From a virus, in IMG/VR virus record IMGVR_UViG_3300011114_000074, positions 1 to 33,965 of that record: 33,965 nucleotides of DNA; one strand, written 5' to 3'. The position numbers were made by a program, and so were the translations under genes. Of this stretch, positions 13,895-18,736 are shown one piece after another. The notes beneath the pieces are model-generated. The model did not search any database and was not told the origin of the DNA. It saw only the letters and a program-made list of their open reading frames with translations. Numbering within the stretch: the first letter of the stretch is position 1; the number at the start of each line of letters is the position of its first letter.

Positions 13895-14081
13895 GGCTTG
13901 GGTATCCTGCTTCTTCAGCCAAGACAGCTTTGTTCAAAGCTGCTGACATTTCTTCAGCCAATGTTCTTGTGGCTTTTTCAAGCATCCTGCCCTCTCGATG
14001 TTCAGCGGGACTTAGCGGCAAAGCCTCTGTAGGTGTTTTCCGAAATAGCGCCGCTTCTTCGGGCCTGTTCAAGCGTGTCAT
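13884..14081 (-). CDS. Hypothetical helical protein, 65 aa
   Basis: The ATG at 14081 (MTRLNRPEEAALFRKTPTEA) is preceded by AAAGGAAG at good spacing, so I prefer it to the longer frame. The rest, SPAEHREGRMLEKATRTLAE and MSAALNKAVLAEEAGYPS, is a charged amphipathic helical protein with no family I recognise. It overlaps the 3' end of the zeta-toxin-like gene by 80 bases in another frame and the next gene by 11. An antitoxin role was considered because of the neighbour, but the order (after the putative toxin) and the lack of any recognisable antitoxin motif leave this open. Confidence 0.65.
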   Translation of the reverse strand: MTRLNRPEEAALFRKTPTEALPLSPAEHREGRMLEKATRTLAEEMSAALNKAVLAEEAGYPSRGA

Positions 14082-14898
14082 ATAACTTCCTTTCAACTTG
14101 ATTTTCGTTCAATTTAGGCAGCTTGTCAAGCGAACTTACAAAAGATTTGCCAGCGCCACGCGAATTATCAATGACTTGTATCTTGACTTTTGGGTTATTT
14201 TTGTATTTTTCCTGCAATTCATAAACAGTGTTTAATGCGCCAATGTGCGTTTTTAGATGTTCGCCGATGGGCACAGTTCTGCCAGTGCCAAATTCTTTTT
14301 CTTGCCCGTTGGCGCGTTTTAGCGCACCATTTTCTAAGGCTTCTACAGGATCGCGGTAGGTGTAAATGATCTGAACGTTGCGGTTGCCTCTTAACGCCTG
14401 CTGGATTTTTTTGTCGGAACTTTCAAACTTGTTCATGTTGGTGTCGTACACTATTTCGGCCCGTTTGACCAATTCAGAGACGTTTGTAAGCCCTTTTAAA
14501 GCAGTGGTTTTTCCAGCCCCAGTGCCGCCAGCAGTGAAAACAACCGTGTTGTCGCTTCCCTTTGGGGTTGGATTTGACAGCTTTTCCGCATAAACCCGCT
14601 TGATAAATTGGCTAGATGGCTCATGCACATTGGCAGACTTTGTGCGGTCAGCCAAGTAGTGCGGGGACAATTCCCGCGCAATGTCTGTGCTTAAAATTTT
14701 CCCGCCGTCAGAGTCTTTTATAGCAGCGTAATTCTGACGCAATTTTAAATAATTATTATTTAAATTGTCAAAATACTCCTGCTCAATCGGGTCTTGCGAT
14801 TGTGGCTGGCCCTGCGGGATAAGCGCCGATGCCCTGTTTTGGTCAGGAACAGGCGCTGGTTGTCCCGCCGCCATCATGCTGGACAGCGGAATTGGCAT
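14002..14898 (-). CDS. Zeta-toxin-like P-loop kinase domain protein
   Basis: A 298-aa protein. Residues 1-110 are Gln/Asn-rich and then helical (STDIARELSPHYL). The P-loop GGTGAGKTT is at about 124-132 (FTAGGTGAGKTTAL), followed by AEIVYDTNMNKFESSDKKI and a second strand NVQIIYTYRDPVEALENGAL. The arrangement of an N-terminal STD...S/H-Y element, GxxGxGKT and the following D/E is that of the zeta-toxin/UDP-GlcNAc-kinase superfamily, which also has many phage members of unknown role. A second SRGAGKSF at about 246-253 mimics a P-loop. No epsilon-like antitoxin is visible. It could be a virion or late kinase rather than a toxin. Confidence 0.75.
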   Translation of the reverse strand: MPIPLSSMMAAGQPAPVPDQNRASALIPQGQPQSQDPIEQEYFDNLNNNYLKLRQNYAAIKDSDGGKILSTDIARELSPHYLADRTKSANVHEPSSQFIKRVYAEKLSNPTPKGSDNTVVFTAGGTGAGKTTALKGLTNVSELVKRAEIVYDTNMNKFESSDKKIQQALRGNRNVQIIYTYRDPVEALENGALKRANGQEKEFGTGRTVPIGEHLKTHIGALNTVYELQEKYKNNPKVKIQVIDNSRGAGKSFVSSLDKLPKLNENQVERKLYDTLEQARRSGAISENTYRGFAAKSR

Positions 14899-16736: not shown

Positions 16737-16839
16737 GTAGGTCGCCACTTGCGTAGAGGGCGGCGCTGATTTCTTCAAGGGTGTACCTGTGTCCTTCACG
16801 GGCTTTGTCCAAAAGTTTGTTTGCTACTTCACGATTCAC
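16564..16839 (-). CDS. Hypothetical 91-aa protein with GTG start
   Basis: The GTG at 16839 overlaps the stop of the replication gene (GTGA) and has AAGGAGA just upstream. The frame encodes NREVANKLLDKAREGHRYTL, then EEISAALYASGDL, then a less ordered Ser/Gly/Ala-rich half. It ends with an ATGA overlap onto the resolvase start, so both ends fit the operon. The first 36 residues look like a family; the rest may be the by-product of a gene in another frame (16545-16736). Confidence 0.6.
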   Translation of the reverse strand: MNREVANKLLDKAREGHRYTLEEISAALYASGDLHDPLRSAGMASALSGQGETIGQCESAKLVASSENRHCADSWAGYSRYLDKRNEQAAA

Positions 16840-17609
16840 ATGCTCTCCTTCACACCGCCGCGAATAGCTGCCATCTTCGCCAAAACCTCCAAGGAAGGGC
16901 CGCTGCAATTTCTGTCAGCCTCCTCCCTTAGTCTGCGTTGCGTGTCCTCATAGGCTTGATTTCTAGGCACTGTTGTTCGGGCTATATCCGCATTGATCTG
17001 TGCAAAAGATGCCTTCGGGACTGACTGATTGCGAACCCAGTTGCGCCATGTCGCCAGCCAATCCAGCTTAACACCACCAGACCCAGCCTTTGCAGTCCAA
17101 AAGTCTTTAAACGAATCAAACGTGTTCTGCAAGTTAAGGTCTGGTCGTTGCTGTATGCAGAAGTCTGCCCATTCCTTTGGGAACACAAAGTCTTGAGGCA
17201 GGCGCGACCCGCGCTGCTTCTTCAATAGTTCTTGGTTAATGGTTATTGGTTCTTGGTTATTGGTTGGTTGAACGTCCGTTGAACGGGGGTTGCTCCGGCG
17301 TTCAGCAGATGCTTTACCAGCCCTAGACGCCTGTTCAATTTTCCCTTTGAAGTGGGCAATTTCCTTGTCTGCACGGGTGTTTATCCAGCCATCTTCAGTC
17401 AGCTTAAAAAATTCCTGAAGTACCTCATGTACCTCTGATTCATGATCTTTTAAGCCGATCTGCCGTGCAACCACCGCTATACCGCTGTTCAACGGGCGTT
17501 CACTTAGATAGTAGGCATCAAGCAAGCGCCTGTAAGCAATGTCTTCGATGGGTGAGAGATGCCGGGTGTGGCTTACATAGTCACCAATGTTGAATTGGTA
17601 GTAGTGCAT
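16836..17609 (-). CDS. DUF1376 replication protein (initiator-like)
   Basis: A 257-aa protein. I chose the ATG at 17609 because it begins exactly at the conserved DUF1376 sequence (MHYYQFNIGDYVSHTRHLSP then IEDIAYRRLLDAYYLSERPL). The frame is open for a further 41 codons upstream, but that part coincides with a structured RNA. DUF1376 is a winged-helix-like domain typical of phage replication initiators. A linker (about 95-145) is rich in Asn/Gln/Arg, and the C-terminal half (about 150-225) has LPQDFVFPKEWADFCIQQRP and WLATWRNWVRNQS, as in DnaT/primosomal C-terminal domains. It probably binds the origin and recruits the host helicase. The only SD-like sequence is a weak GGAC. Confidence 0.88.
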   Translation of the reverse strand: MHYYQFNIGDYVSHTRHLSPIEDIAYRRLLDAYYLSERPLNSGIAVVARQIGLKDHESEVHEVLQEFFKLTEDGWINTRADKEIAHFKGKIEQASRAGKASAERRSNPRSTDVQPTNNQEPITINQELLKKQRGSRLPQDFVFPKEWADFCIQQRPDLNLQNTFDSFKDFWTAKAGSGGVKLDWLATWRNWVRNQSVPKASFAQINADIARTTVPRNQAYEDTQRRLREEADRNCSGPSLEVLAKMAAIRGGVKESM

Positions 17610-17616
17610 AAAGTCC

Positions 17617-17717
17617 AAAAAAAAAGACTTAGGCGAGACACTCACCGTTTCCGGTGTTGGCGGACTGGTCAGCACCAGCAGTGTCCCGTCTAAGTCTTGC
17701 TGAAAATTCCCCGCCAA
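17617..17717 (-). ncRNA. Pseudoknotted three-way-junction RNA with 3' U tract, upstream of the replication gene
   Basis: Reading the minus strand, a 19-position stem P1 (17698-17680 with 17642-17624) has 17 Watson-Crick pairs, one G-U and one A-C mismatch. It encloses hairpin P2 (CTGGT-GCTG-ACCAG, 17678-17665) and hairpin P3 (CACCG-GAAA-CGGTG, 17656-17643), a GNRA loop. The 8 bases between P2 and P3 (17664-17657, TCCGCCAA) are complementary to TTGGCGGG at 17717-17710 upstream of P1, giving a pseudoknot of seven Watson-Crick pairs plus one G-U. Nearly every base is assigned. Nine T residues follow P1 directly, so it could act as a terminator/attenuator 7 bases before the replication ATG. No known family is recognised. 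Confidence 0.72.
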
Positions 17718-17838
17718 GGGATGTGAAATCATACATCAAAATTAAAAGGTGGGGGTACTCGCTGCGTCTGGCGTTTTGGGTTCAACCTGCGCCGCCTAGA
17801 ACAACGACTTGCCAGCATCCGCTTTCCCCCCTGTAAAT

Positions 17839-18145: not shown

Positions 18146-18736
18146 ATGTCAAGCACTCAATACCTCTCTTGTTCCGAAACCGCAAAGTTGGTTCGGGCGG
18201 CTCTCAAAGAGTCATTCCCCGGCGTCAAGTTCAGTGTCAAGTCCAGCAGCTACGCTGGCGGCGCTAGCATCAATGTTTCCTACACTGACGGCCCTAACGC
18301 CAGCCAAGTCAAGGCTGTTGTCAGCATGTTTGAAGGCTCTTATTTTGACGGCATGACCGATTACAAGGGCAACAATTACAGCAGCTTGGACGGTCAGCCA
18401 GTTTCGTTTGGTGCTGATTTTATTTTTGTAAATCGCCGGTTTACCGCACCAATTTTGACAGGCGTGGCTGTTGATGTGTGCAACCGTTTTGGGTTCGACA
18501 ACGAAGTTTTGATTGATAGCGGCGGTCAGTATTTTGGCGCTTCGATTAAGGCAGTCGGCCCCAACGCTGGCAGCGCTTCTCGCGGTTACGAAACTAGAGA
18601 CATTGAACGAATCATTCGGGAAGCAGCCAGCGAATACAGCATGGACGATGCCGCACAAAGCGCCACGTTAGCCCGTGTAGCCTTTCTAGGTGATGACGGT
18701 TACGGCTACGGTGCAGTGGGCTTGTTGGCAGCTTAA
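18146..18736 (+). CDS. LPD29-domain protein (early)
   Basis: A 196-aa protein. Residues 7-95 (LSCSETAKLVRAALKESFPG, GGASINVSYTDGP, FEGSYFDGMTDYKG and then FGADFIFVNRRF) correspond to LPD29, a domain first described in large polyvalent proteins of phages and mobile elements; its biochemical role is not established. The second half (about 105-196) has DIERIIREAASEY and a Gly/Tyr-rich end. AAGGAG lies 7 bases before the ATG. It is the first gene after the operator-controlled promoter, a usual place for genes that neutralise host defences; that role is inference. Confidence 0.82.
   Translation: MSSTQYLSCSETAKLVRAALKESFPGVKFSVKSSSYAGGASINVSYTDGPNASQVKAVVSMFEGSYFDGMTDYKGNNYSSLDGQPVSFGADFIFVNRRFTAPILTGVAVDVCNRFGFDNEVLIDSGGQYFGASIKAVGPNAGSASRGYETRDIERIIREAASEYSMDDAAQSATLARVAFLGDDGYGYGAVGLLAA

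Follow-up and report, generated by a model that had tools for sequence, protein, structure and literature searches.

A conserved, pseudoknotted RNA of ~105 nt is encoded on the minus strand (about 17721-17617) of the 33,965-nt stretch of viral DNA analysed here, which we will call the window. It belongs to a sizeable RNA family whose fold has no counterpart in Rfam and whose two pseudoknots are unusually well supported; in many uncultured phages, a member of this family stands at the beginning of early operons. From position and sequence, we propose that its members may be cis-acting conditional terminators, that is, attenuator leaders placed at +1 of a phage early operon, a reading to which we assign a probability of roughly 0.45.

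Position, fold, and boundaries of the element

The element lies between a divergent gene, which starts at 18146 on the plus strand, and a DUF1376 gene whose likely start is the ATG at 17609-17607. From 5' to 3', it can be divided into a hairpin (P1), a 19-position stem (P2) enclosing a three-way junction with two further hairpins (P3 and P4), and a run of seven to nine U residues flush with P2 (Table 1). The P2/P3/P4 junction is perfect, with one conserved unpaired base, a C, which is also the only such base outside the U tract across the family. Two pseudoknots complete the fold: PK1 joins the loop of P1 to the P3/P4 linker by base pairing, and PK2 joins the loop of P3 to the strand that follows P1. 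The isolated element has a minimum free energy of -46.7 kcal/mol, as compared with a mean of -32.2 for shuffled sequences (z -4.2), and none of the 200 shuffles was equally stable.

Table 1. Features of the element and its surroundings in the window
Feature	Position	Strand	Detail or basis
-10 hexamer TATGAT	17728..17733	-	6 nt ahead of the first P1 base
P1, 5'-terminal hairpin	17708..17721	-	TCCC (17721-17718)/GGGA (17711-17708), 6-nt loop TTGGCG
PK1 strand a, P1 loop UUGGCG	17712..17717	-	Partner 17662-17657
PK2 strand a, UCAGC, abutting P2 on its 5' side	17699..17703	-	Partner is the P3 loop
P2, 5' strand, 19 positions	17680..17698	-	Conserved mid-stem mismatch; here an A.C, at position 10 counted from the top
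P3 hairpin GCUGG/CCAGU, loop UGCUGA	17664..17679	-	First pair is an invariant G.U
PK2 strand b, GCUGA inside the P3 loop	17669..17673	-	Pairs with UCAGC 17703-17699
P3/P4 junction strand, C + CGCCAA	17657..17663	-	CGCCAA is PK1 strand b
P4 hairpin CACCG/CGGUG, GNRA loop GAAA	17643..17656	-	Covariation
P2, 3' strand	17624..17642	-	Covariation
U9 tract flush with P2, predicted intrinsic-terminator tail	17617..17625	-	Sequence
Weak Shine-Dalgarno GGAC and start codon ATG	17607..17616	-	Sequence
DUF1376 (PF07120) primosomal/replication gene, first of the operon	16836..17609	-	Pfam E 6.5e-24; PHROG primosomal protein E 1e-41

An earlier sequence-only reading of the window had already located the 19-position stem, the P3 hairpin, the P4 hairpin with its GAAA loop, and the nine U residues where we find them, as well as the 7-nt gap between the end of the element and the ATG. 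It had also recognized an end resembling an intrinsic terminator ahead of the DUF1376 gene, which agrees with the stem being flush with the U tract. The 5' boundary, which had been set at 17717, should be moved to about 17721, as the four bases TCCC pair with GGGA to form P1. The 8-bp pseudoknot proposed at that stage is real, though its conserved part comprises 6 bp (17717-17712 with 17662-17657) and the remainder is flanking sequence that includes a G.U pair; the second pseudoknot, UCAGC (17703-17699) with GCUGA (17673-17669), had been missed.

Homologues and covariation

The BLAST matches of the element lie in Pseudomonas phage AH02, where an intergenic gap contains it (72% over the element), and in two genomes of metagenomic phages (the Manatee Spring records). 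When four further members were compared with phages in the same way, only the two Manatee Spring records or no match were returned, and a search of plasmids gave nothing convincing. Searching the IMG/VR proteins with the DUF1376 gene led to 80 loci, several of which carry the same RNA upstream. A spaced DNA pattern then retrieved at least 119 stretches, and later patterns (without the U tract, without PK1, or with a degenerate PK1) brought the collection to at least about 196 distinct structured sequences. Nearly all of these are phage contigs, and AH02 is the only phage isolate with a family member in these searches. An exact-pattern scan of 84,980 bacterial and archaeal species gave four true matches, one of them a Polynucleobacter isolate, and a covariance-model search of 399 genomes of that isolate's family added two more. 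The known spread of the family is mostly in viral contigs, and it is rare in bacterial genomes. The prophage-like region of Polynucleobacter (L240, 2090-4841) has a lambda-like order, that is, a divergent HTH repressor, the family member, a replication gene, and a helicase loader.

One copy per contig is the norm, being found in nearly all of ~97 contigs. Two related phage contigs possess two copies each, one per divergent early operon; in L212 (2335-4216), a family member and an HNH-like gene stand at the start of both divergent early operons, and the second copy carries the PK1 variant UUGGAG/CUCCAA.

A MAFFT alignment of 42 sequences (A1) supports a single structure, in which 98.2% of 1792 cells pair and 32 of the 43 pairs show double-sided changes; pairing falls to only 33-45% when the partners are slid by 1-3 columns. 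A covariance model (R1) was built on the nested part only, with the pseudoknots left out, and 101 members were realigned with it (A3, 100 distinct sequences). In this larger alignment, 97.9% of the cells are paired and double-sided changes occur in 36 of the 43 pairs. The covariation score is 0.673, as compared with 0.170 in the shuffle control, which ignores relatedness, and with at most 0.117 for slid pairings, which retain relatedness and score far below the real structure. The element is far beyond chance because this level of pairing is accompanied by covariation above both the shuffled and the slid controls. The improbability of a chance origin had been remarked upon from the window, and the compensatory changes in homologous upstream regions whose absence would have spoken against the element are abundant.

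The evidence extends to every helix of A3. P1 has four pairs, with 100% of cells paired and double-sided changes in three pairs; P2 covaries in all 18 modelled pairs; P3 is likewise paired in 100% of cells, with double-sided changes in 3/5 pairs; and P4 is paired in 97.9%, with double-sided changes in 5/5. PK1 taken alone is 100% paired, with 32 double-sided-change cells (3.6 in shuffles), and the strand a variants UUGGAG, UUGGUG, UUGACG, and one UUGGGG have their pairing partner every time. One might suspect that the near-invariance of PK1 is an artefact of the first search pattern, and degenerate patterns, in which nine letter combinations were allowed at PK1 position 13 or 12, rule this out, showing that PK1 covaries. 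Among the matches with a proper P2, position 13 gave 24 A-U, 9 U-A, and 1 G-U, with no unpairable combination, and position 12 gave 28 A-U and again zero unpairable combinations. For PK2 alone, 87.7% of cells are paired versus 59.3% in shuffles, the score is 0.694 versus 0.221, and double-sided changes are seen in 5/5 pairs.

Of 147 members, 127 keep exactly one mismatch in P2 (A.C, A.G, U.U, and others), which in most cases falls at position 9 or 10 counted from the junction, and because it is kept, non-pairing at this point seems to be selected. In a crude rigid-body model, PK2 can form in cis only if at least two to three bottom pairs of P2 open or the stem kinks by 60-80 degrees at the mismatch, which points only weakly to PK2 and a complete P2 being mutually exclusive.

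Other readings of the conserved sequence were examined and set aside. The idea that the element functions as DNA, or from the opposite strand, is contradicted by 241 G.U cells versus 19 A.C cells on this strand, and by the promoter, the U tract, and the gene orientation as well. Pairing of J3/4 with the Shine-Dalgarno region (UUGGAGG in some members) fails since complementarity to a sequence's own J is no better than to other PK1 variants. One might also attribute the element to chance hairpins or to constraint from an extension of the open reading frame, given that the frame from the ATG at 17732 reads through the element and is open in the window up to that ATG. This explanation has a negligible probability, considering the covariation on 36 of 43 pairs and the in-frame stops between P1 and the start codon in 105 of 129 homologues, by which codon-driven conservation, the alternative raised for the window, is contradicted.

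Promoter, downstream genes, and other RNAs in the same slot

A -10 match occurs 3-9 nt before P1 in 80% of 194 distinct upstream regions (13.8% when shuffled), with a spacing peak at 6-7 nt. Many members have -35-like hexamers at a spacing of 16-18 nt, and the window's own -35 is poor. Since the -10 box typically precedes P1 by 6-8 nt, the transcript is predicted to start at the element, the putative start in the window being its first base, ~17721. At the other end, most members have seven to nine U residues, and a T run of at least five follows P2 in 142 of 147 members, a figure partly selected by the first search; two loci (L294 and L312) have the fold without a U tract. In most of the 138 sequences compared, 8-13 nt separate the U tract from the start codon. 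A second promoter would not fit into this gap, and transcription of the first gene would therefore depend entirely on read-through of the element. The upstream neighbour in the window is divergent, and the leader must therefore be transcribed for DUF1376 to be expressed.

The genes behind the RNA are varied. Among 88 non-redundant first-gene proteins, 12 are DUF1376 and 13-14 are HNH nucleases (13/88 match HNH_3); some of the others are replication proteins of primosomal or O-like type, and the remaining first genes include ParB-like, GIY-YIG, RecT, and others. The tie to replication genes that had been suggested is therefore too narrow, as HNH, GIY-YIG, ParB-like, and other early genes also lie downstream. 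Homing-type nuclease genes are frequent first genes behind this RNA family. Further along the minus strand of the window, a strong intrinsic terminator at 15520-15501 (GGGGGGTGTTGCAACCCCCC TTTTTTT) is probably the end of the leader's operon, and a gene at 14002-14898, in the region toward the terminase genes, has a Zeta_toxin Pfam match (PF06414, E 3.4e-12); its product may act as a kinase of the phage or resemble a toxin.

Other RNAs can occupy the same slot. In relatives with DUF1376 proteins up to 68% identical, the int-alpA RNA (RF02996) is found at the same place, directly upstream of DUF1376 (L010 3227-3302, L018 3912-3980, L025, L027, L031, L034, L042, L080, and L082), and in sibling phages it begins ~6 nt past the -10 box. 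The window shares with L010/L012 a promoter block, GCAGCGAGTACCCCCACCTTTTRATTTT (one difference), up to the -10 region, after which the sequences diverge completely. The int-alpA family may be under-modelled in Rfam, because several of the sibling-phage matches score under the gathering cutoff. An internal strand of int-alpA apparently complements the DNA that immediately precedes the start codon, e.g., CGAACCUCC with GGAGGUUUGCG in L026.

A third structured leader, family C, precedes DUF1376 in L067 (3245-3395), L070 (3858-4008), L079 (785-937), L083, L084, and L086 (alignment A4). Its hairpin loop GUGAGAA is complementary to a distal UUCUCAC (GUGGAAA/UUUCCAC in L070), and a long helix may form over the Shine-Dalgarno region. 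No Rfam match was found in L067 and L079, and family C is possibly another new RNA family. All three RNA families of the slot have a base-paired 5' end at about +1. Because different first genes stand behind one RNA and different RNAs before one gene, the slot can be regarded as holding a cis leader module.

Possible functions and comparison with known RNAs

As a conditional terminator, the leader RNA would fill all of the interval between the transcription start and the ribosome-binding site. RNA polymerase would start at P1, and the RNA would fold in the order P1, P3, both kissing pseudoknots, and P4, until closure of P2 against the U tract completes the intrinsic terminator. Many transcripts would then end as a short RNA of ~105 nt, and the first gene would be expressed only where polymerase reads past the U tract. 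The folded core would set, and perhaps switch, the efficiency of termination, and in this manner the attenuator would time or limit the early (often replication) genes. We infer from the fold and its placement that polymerase terminates here, that it does so conditionally, and that control is exerted by the pseudoknots. A stem flush with a U tract predicts termination, and expression would therefore need either leakiness or control. Against this reading, L294 and L312 do without a U tract, the geometric conflict between PK2 and the base of P2 is only modest in the crude rigid-body model, and the same picture would be expected of a short RNA that is made constitutively and ends in a leaky terminator. 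No conserved antiterminator pairing was found in the family. The alternative pairing AAGTC/GACTT, proposed as a competitor for the base of the main stem, does form part of a significant trend (P2b/post-U complementarity of 7.4 with a member's own sequence versus 5.5 when permuted, with 0-1 of 2000 permutations as high), though it is absent from large subgroups. If the element gates read-through, phages would time replication genes by RNA structure and not by protein, and polymerase factors acting on it would be new targets to seek. A bolder form of the proposal, which we hold only tentatively and consider doubtful, is that these RNAs are phage switches of a new class: a co-transcriptional 5' double kissing-loop pseudoknot would directly govern termination at its own closing stem with no ligand pocket. 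If it were true, the interchangeable RNAs (this family, int-alpA, and family C) would represent a modular slot for operon-start control across uncultured phages.

Among the alternatives, the one that deserves most attention, though we regard it as unlikely, is that of a phage small RNA acting in trans, with a promoter and a terminator of its own, in which the short form is functional and the next gene is served by leaky read-through. Hfq-bound RNAs carry U tails of the kind seen here (U7-9); the discrete promoter-RNA-terminator unit would suit such a role, as would the fact that the identity of the next gene matters little. A trans-acting RNA would have no need for the kept spacing of 8-13 nt to the start codon, and it should expose a conserved single-stranded seed, whereas nearly all conserved bases are paired internally. 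A precedent for a phage leader that is both small RNA and mRNA is IsrK of Gifsy-1, according to the description cited (PMC4825925). Rather less probable is cis antitermination by analogy with the put sites of HK022, which act through the zinc-binding domain of the RNA polymerase beta' subunit; here, the folded leader would bind RNA polymerase and cause it to ignore its own and later terminators. The position resembles that of putL, at the 5' end of early transcripts and, in the cited account, independent of any dedicated protein (PMC9378689). For our family, too, we noticed no protein that consistently accompanies it, and the two-copy phages carry the element on both divergent early operons. 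Yet nearly all of the ~97 contigs have a single copy, whereas put is present on both arms, the fold differs from the two stem-loops of put, and the element would need to overcome the terminator that it contains.

Ranking after the put-like reading in likelihood, the element could be a structural cap that protects the 5' end of the early mRNA from RNase E/RppH, with the U tract serving as an S1-binding translation enhancer and not as a terminator. This would explain the paired 5' end at about +1 in all three RNA families, the U tract immediately ahead of the Shine-Dalgarno sequence, and the retention of the fold in the two loci without a terminator. A simple 5' block, however, makes an elaborate double pseudoknot with near-invariant kissing sequences unnecessary, and a U tract flush with P2 is terminator-like. 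A promoter, a pseudoknot RNA, a terminator, and a toxin follow one another in ToxIN, and this identical gene order brings to mind the RNA antitoxin of a type III toxin-antitoxin system. That is very improbable, as the downstream genes (DUF1376, HNH, GIY-YIG, ParB-like, and others) include no common endoribonuclease toxin, and the RNA is single copy, with no tandem repeats seen.

The absence of a recognized family, already remarked upon from sequence, was borne out by the Rfam 15 covariance models, which at gathering score gave no match in the window and none on the element in 17 loci; the best weak match was to bglG-cis-reg (19.8 bits versus a cutoff of 80). The int-alpA model (RF02996) did not match the element even at E up to 10. 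A literature search for DUF1376 RNA motifs found none, and no Rfam family and no open-access paper found by word search describes the element; the family is apparently undescribed so far, although an earlier description elsewhere is possible. Two ribozymes bear a formal resemblance, as the 5' hairpin loop of the pistol ribozyme pairs with a junction linker and the HDV ribozyme has a similar strand order; both were rejected since there was no Rfam match and there are no conserved unpaired catalytic bases.

Attenuators and terminator-type riboswitch leaders share with the element a +1 leader, a complex 5' fold, and an intrinsic terminator right before the gene. The element differs from them in having no conserved unpaired pocket or antiterminator and in that its downstream genes are mutually unrelated. 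The riboswitch-like sensor that had been considered for the window thus finds little support: a single conserved unpaired base outside the U tract argues that conservation serves the fold and not a ligand pocket, and a metabolite riboswitch in particular was rejected because the downstream genes (replication, homing nucleases, and ParB-like) do not form one pathway.

Closer parallels can be found among phage leaders. The IsrK transcript can be a short RNA or a longer mRNA (PMC4825925); this likeness in transcript form is set by that description, and IsrK comes from one Salmonella prophage, unlike the wide family presented here. The put sites of HK022 (putL and putR) are folded cis RNAs that start the early transcripts, apparently with no dedicated phage protein, and resemble the element in this placement. 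They are ~70 nt long with two stem-loops, as compared with ~105 nt, a three-way junction, and two pseudoknots, and the account cited describes no built-in terminator, whereas the element has a terminator-like end (PMC9378689). The int-alpA RNA is, like the element, phage-associated and structured, and spans the interval between the -10 box and the DUF1376 gene, beginning at +1, although its sequence and fold are unrelated and it has no flush U tract before the start codon. It now gains a context, since the two RNAs share one +1 slot behind closely related promoters.
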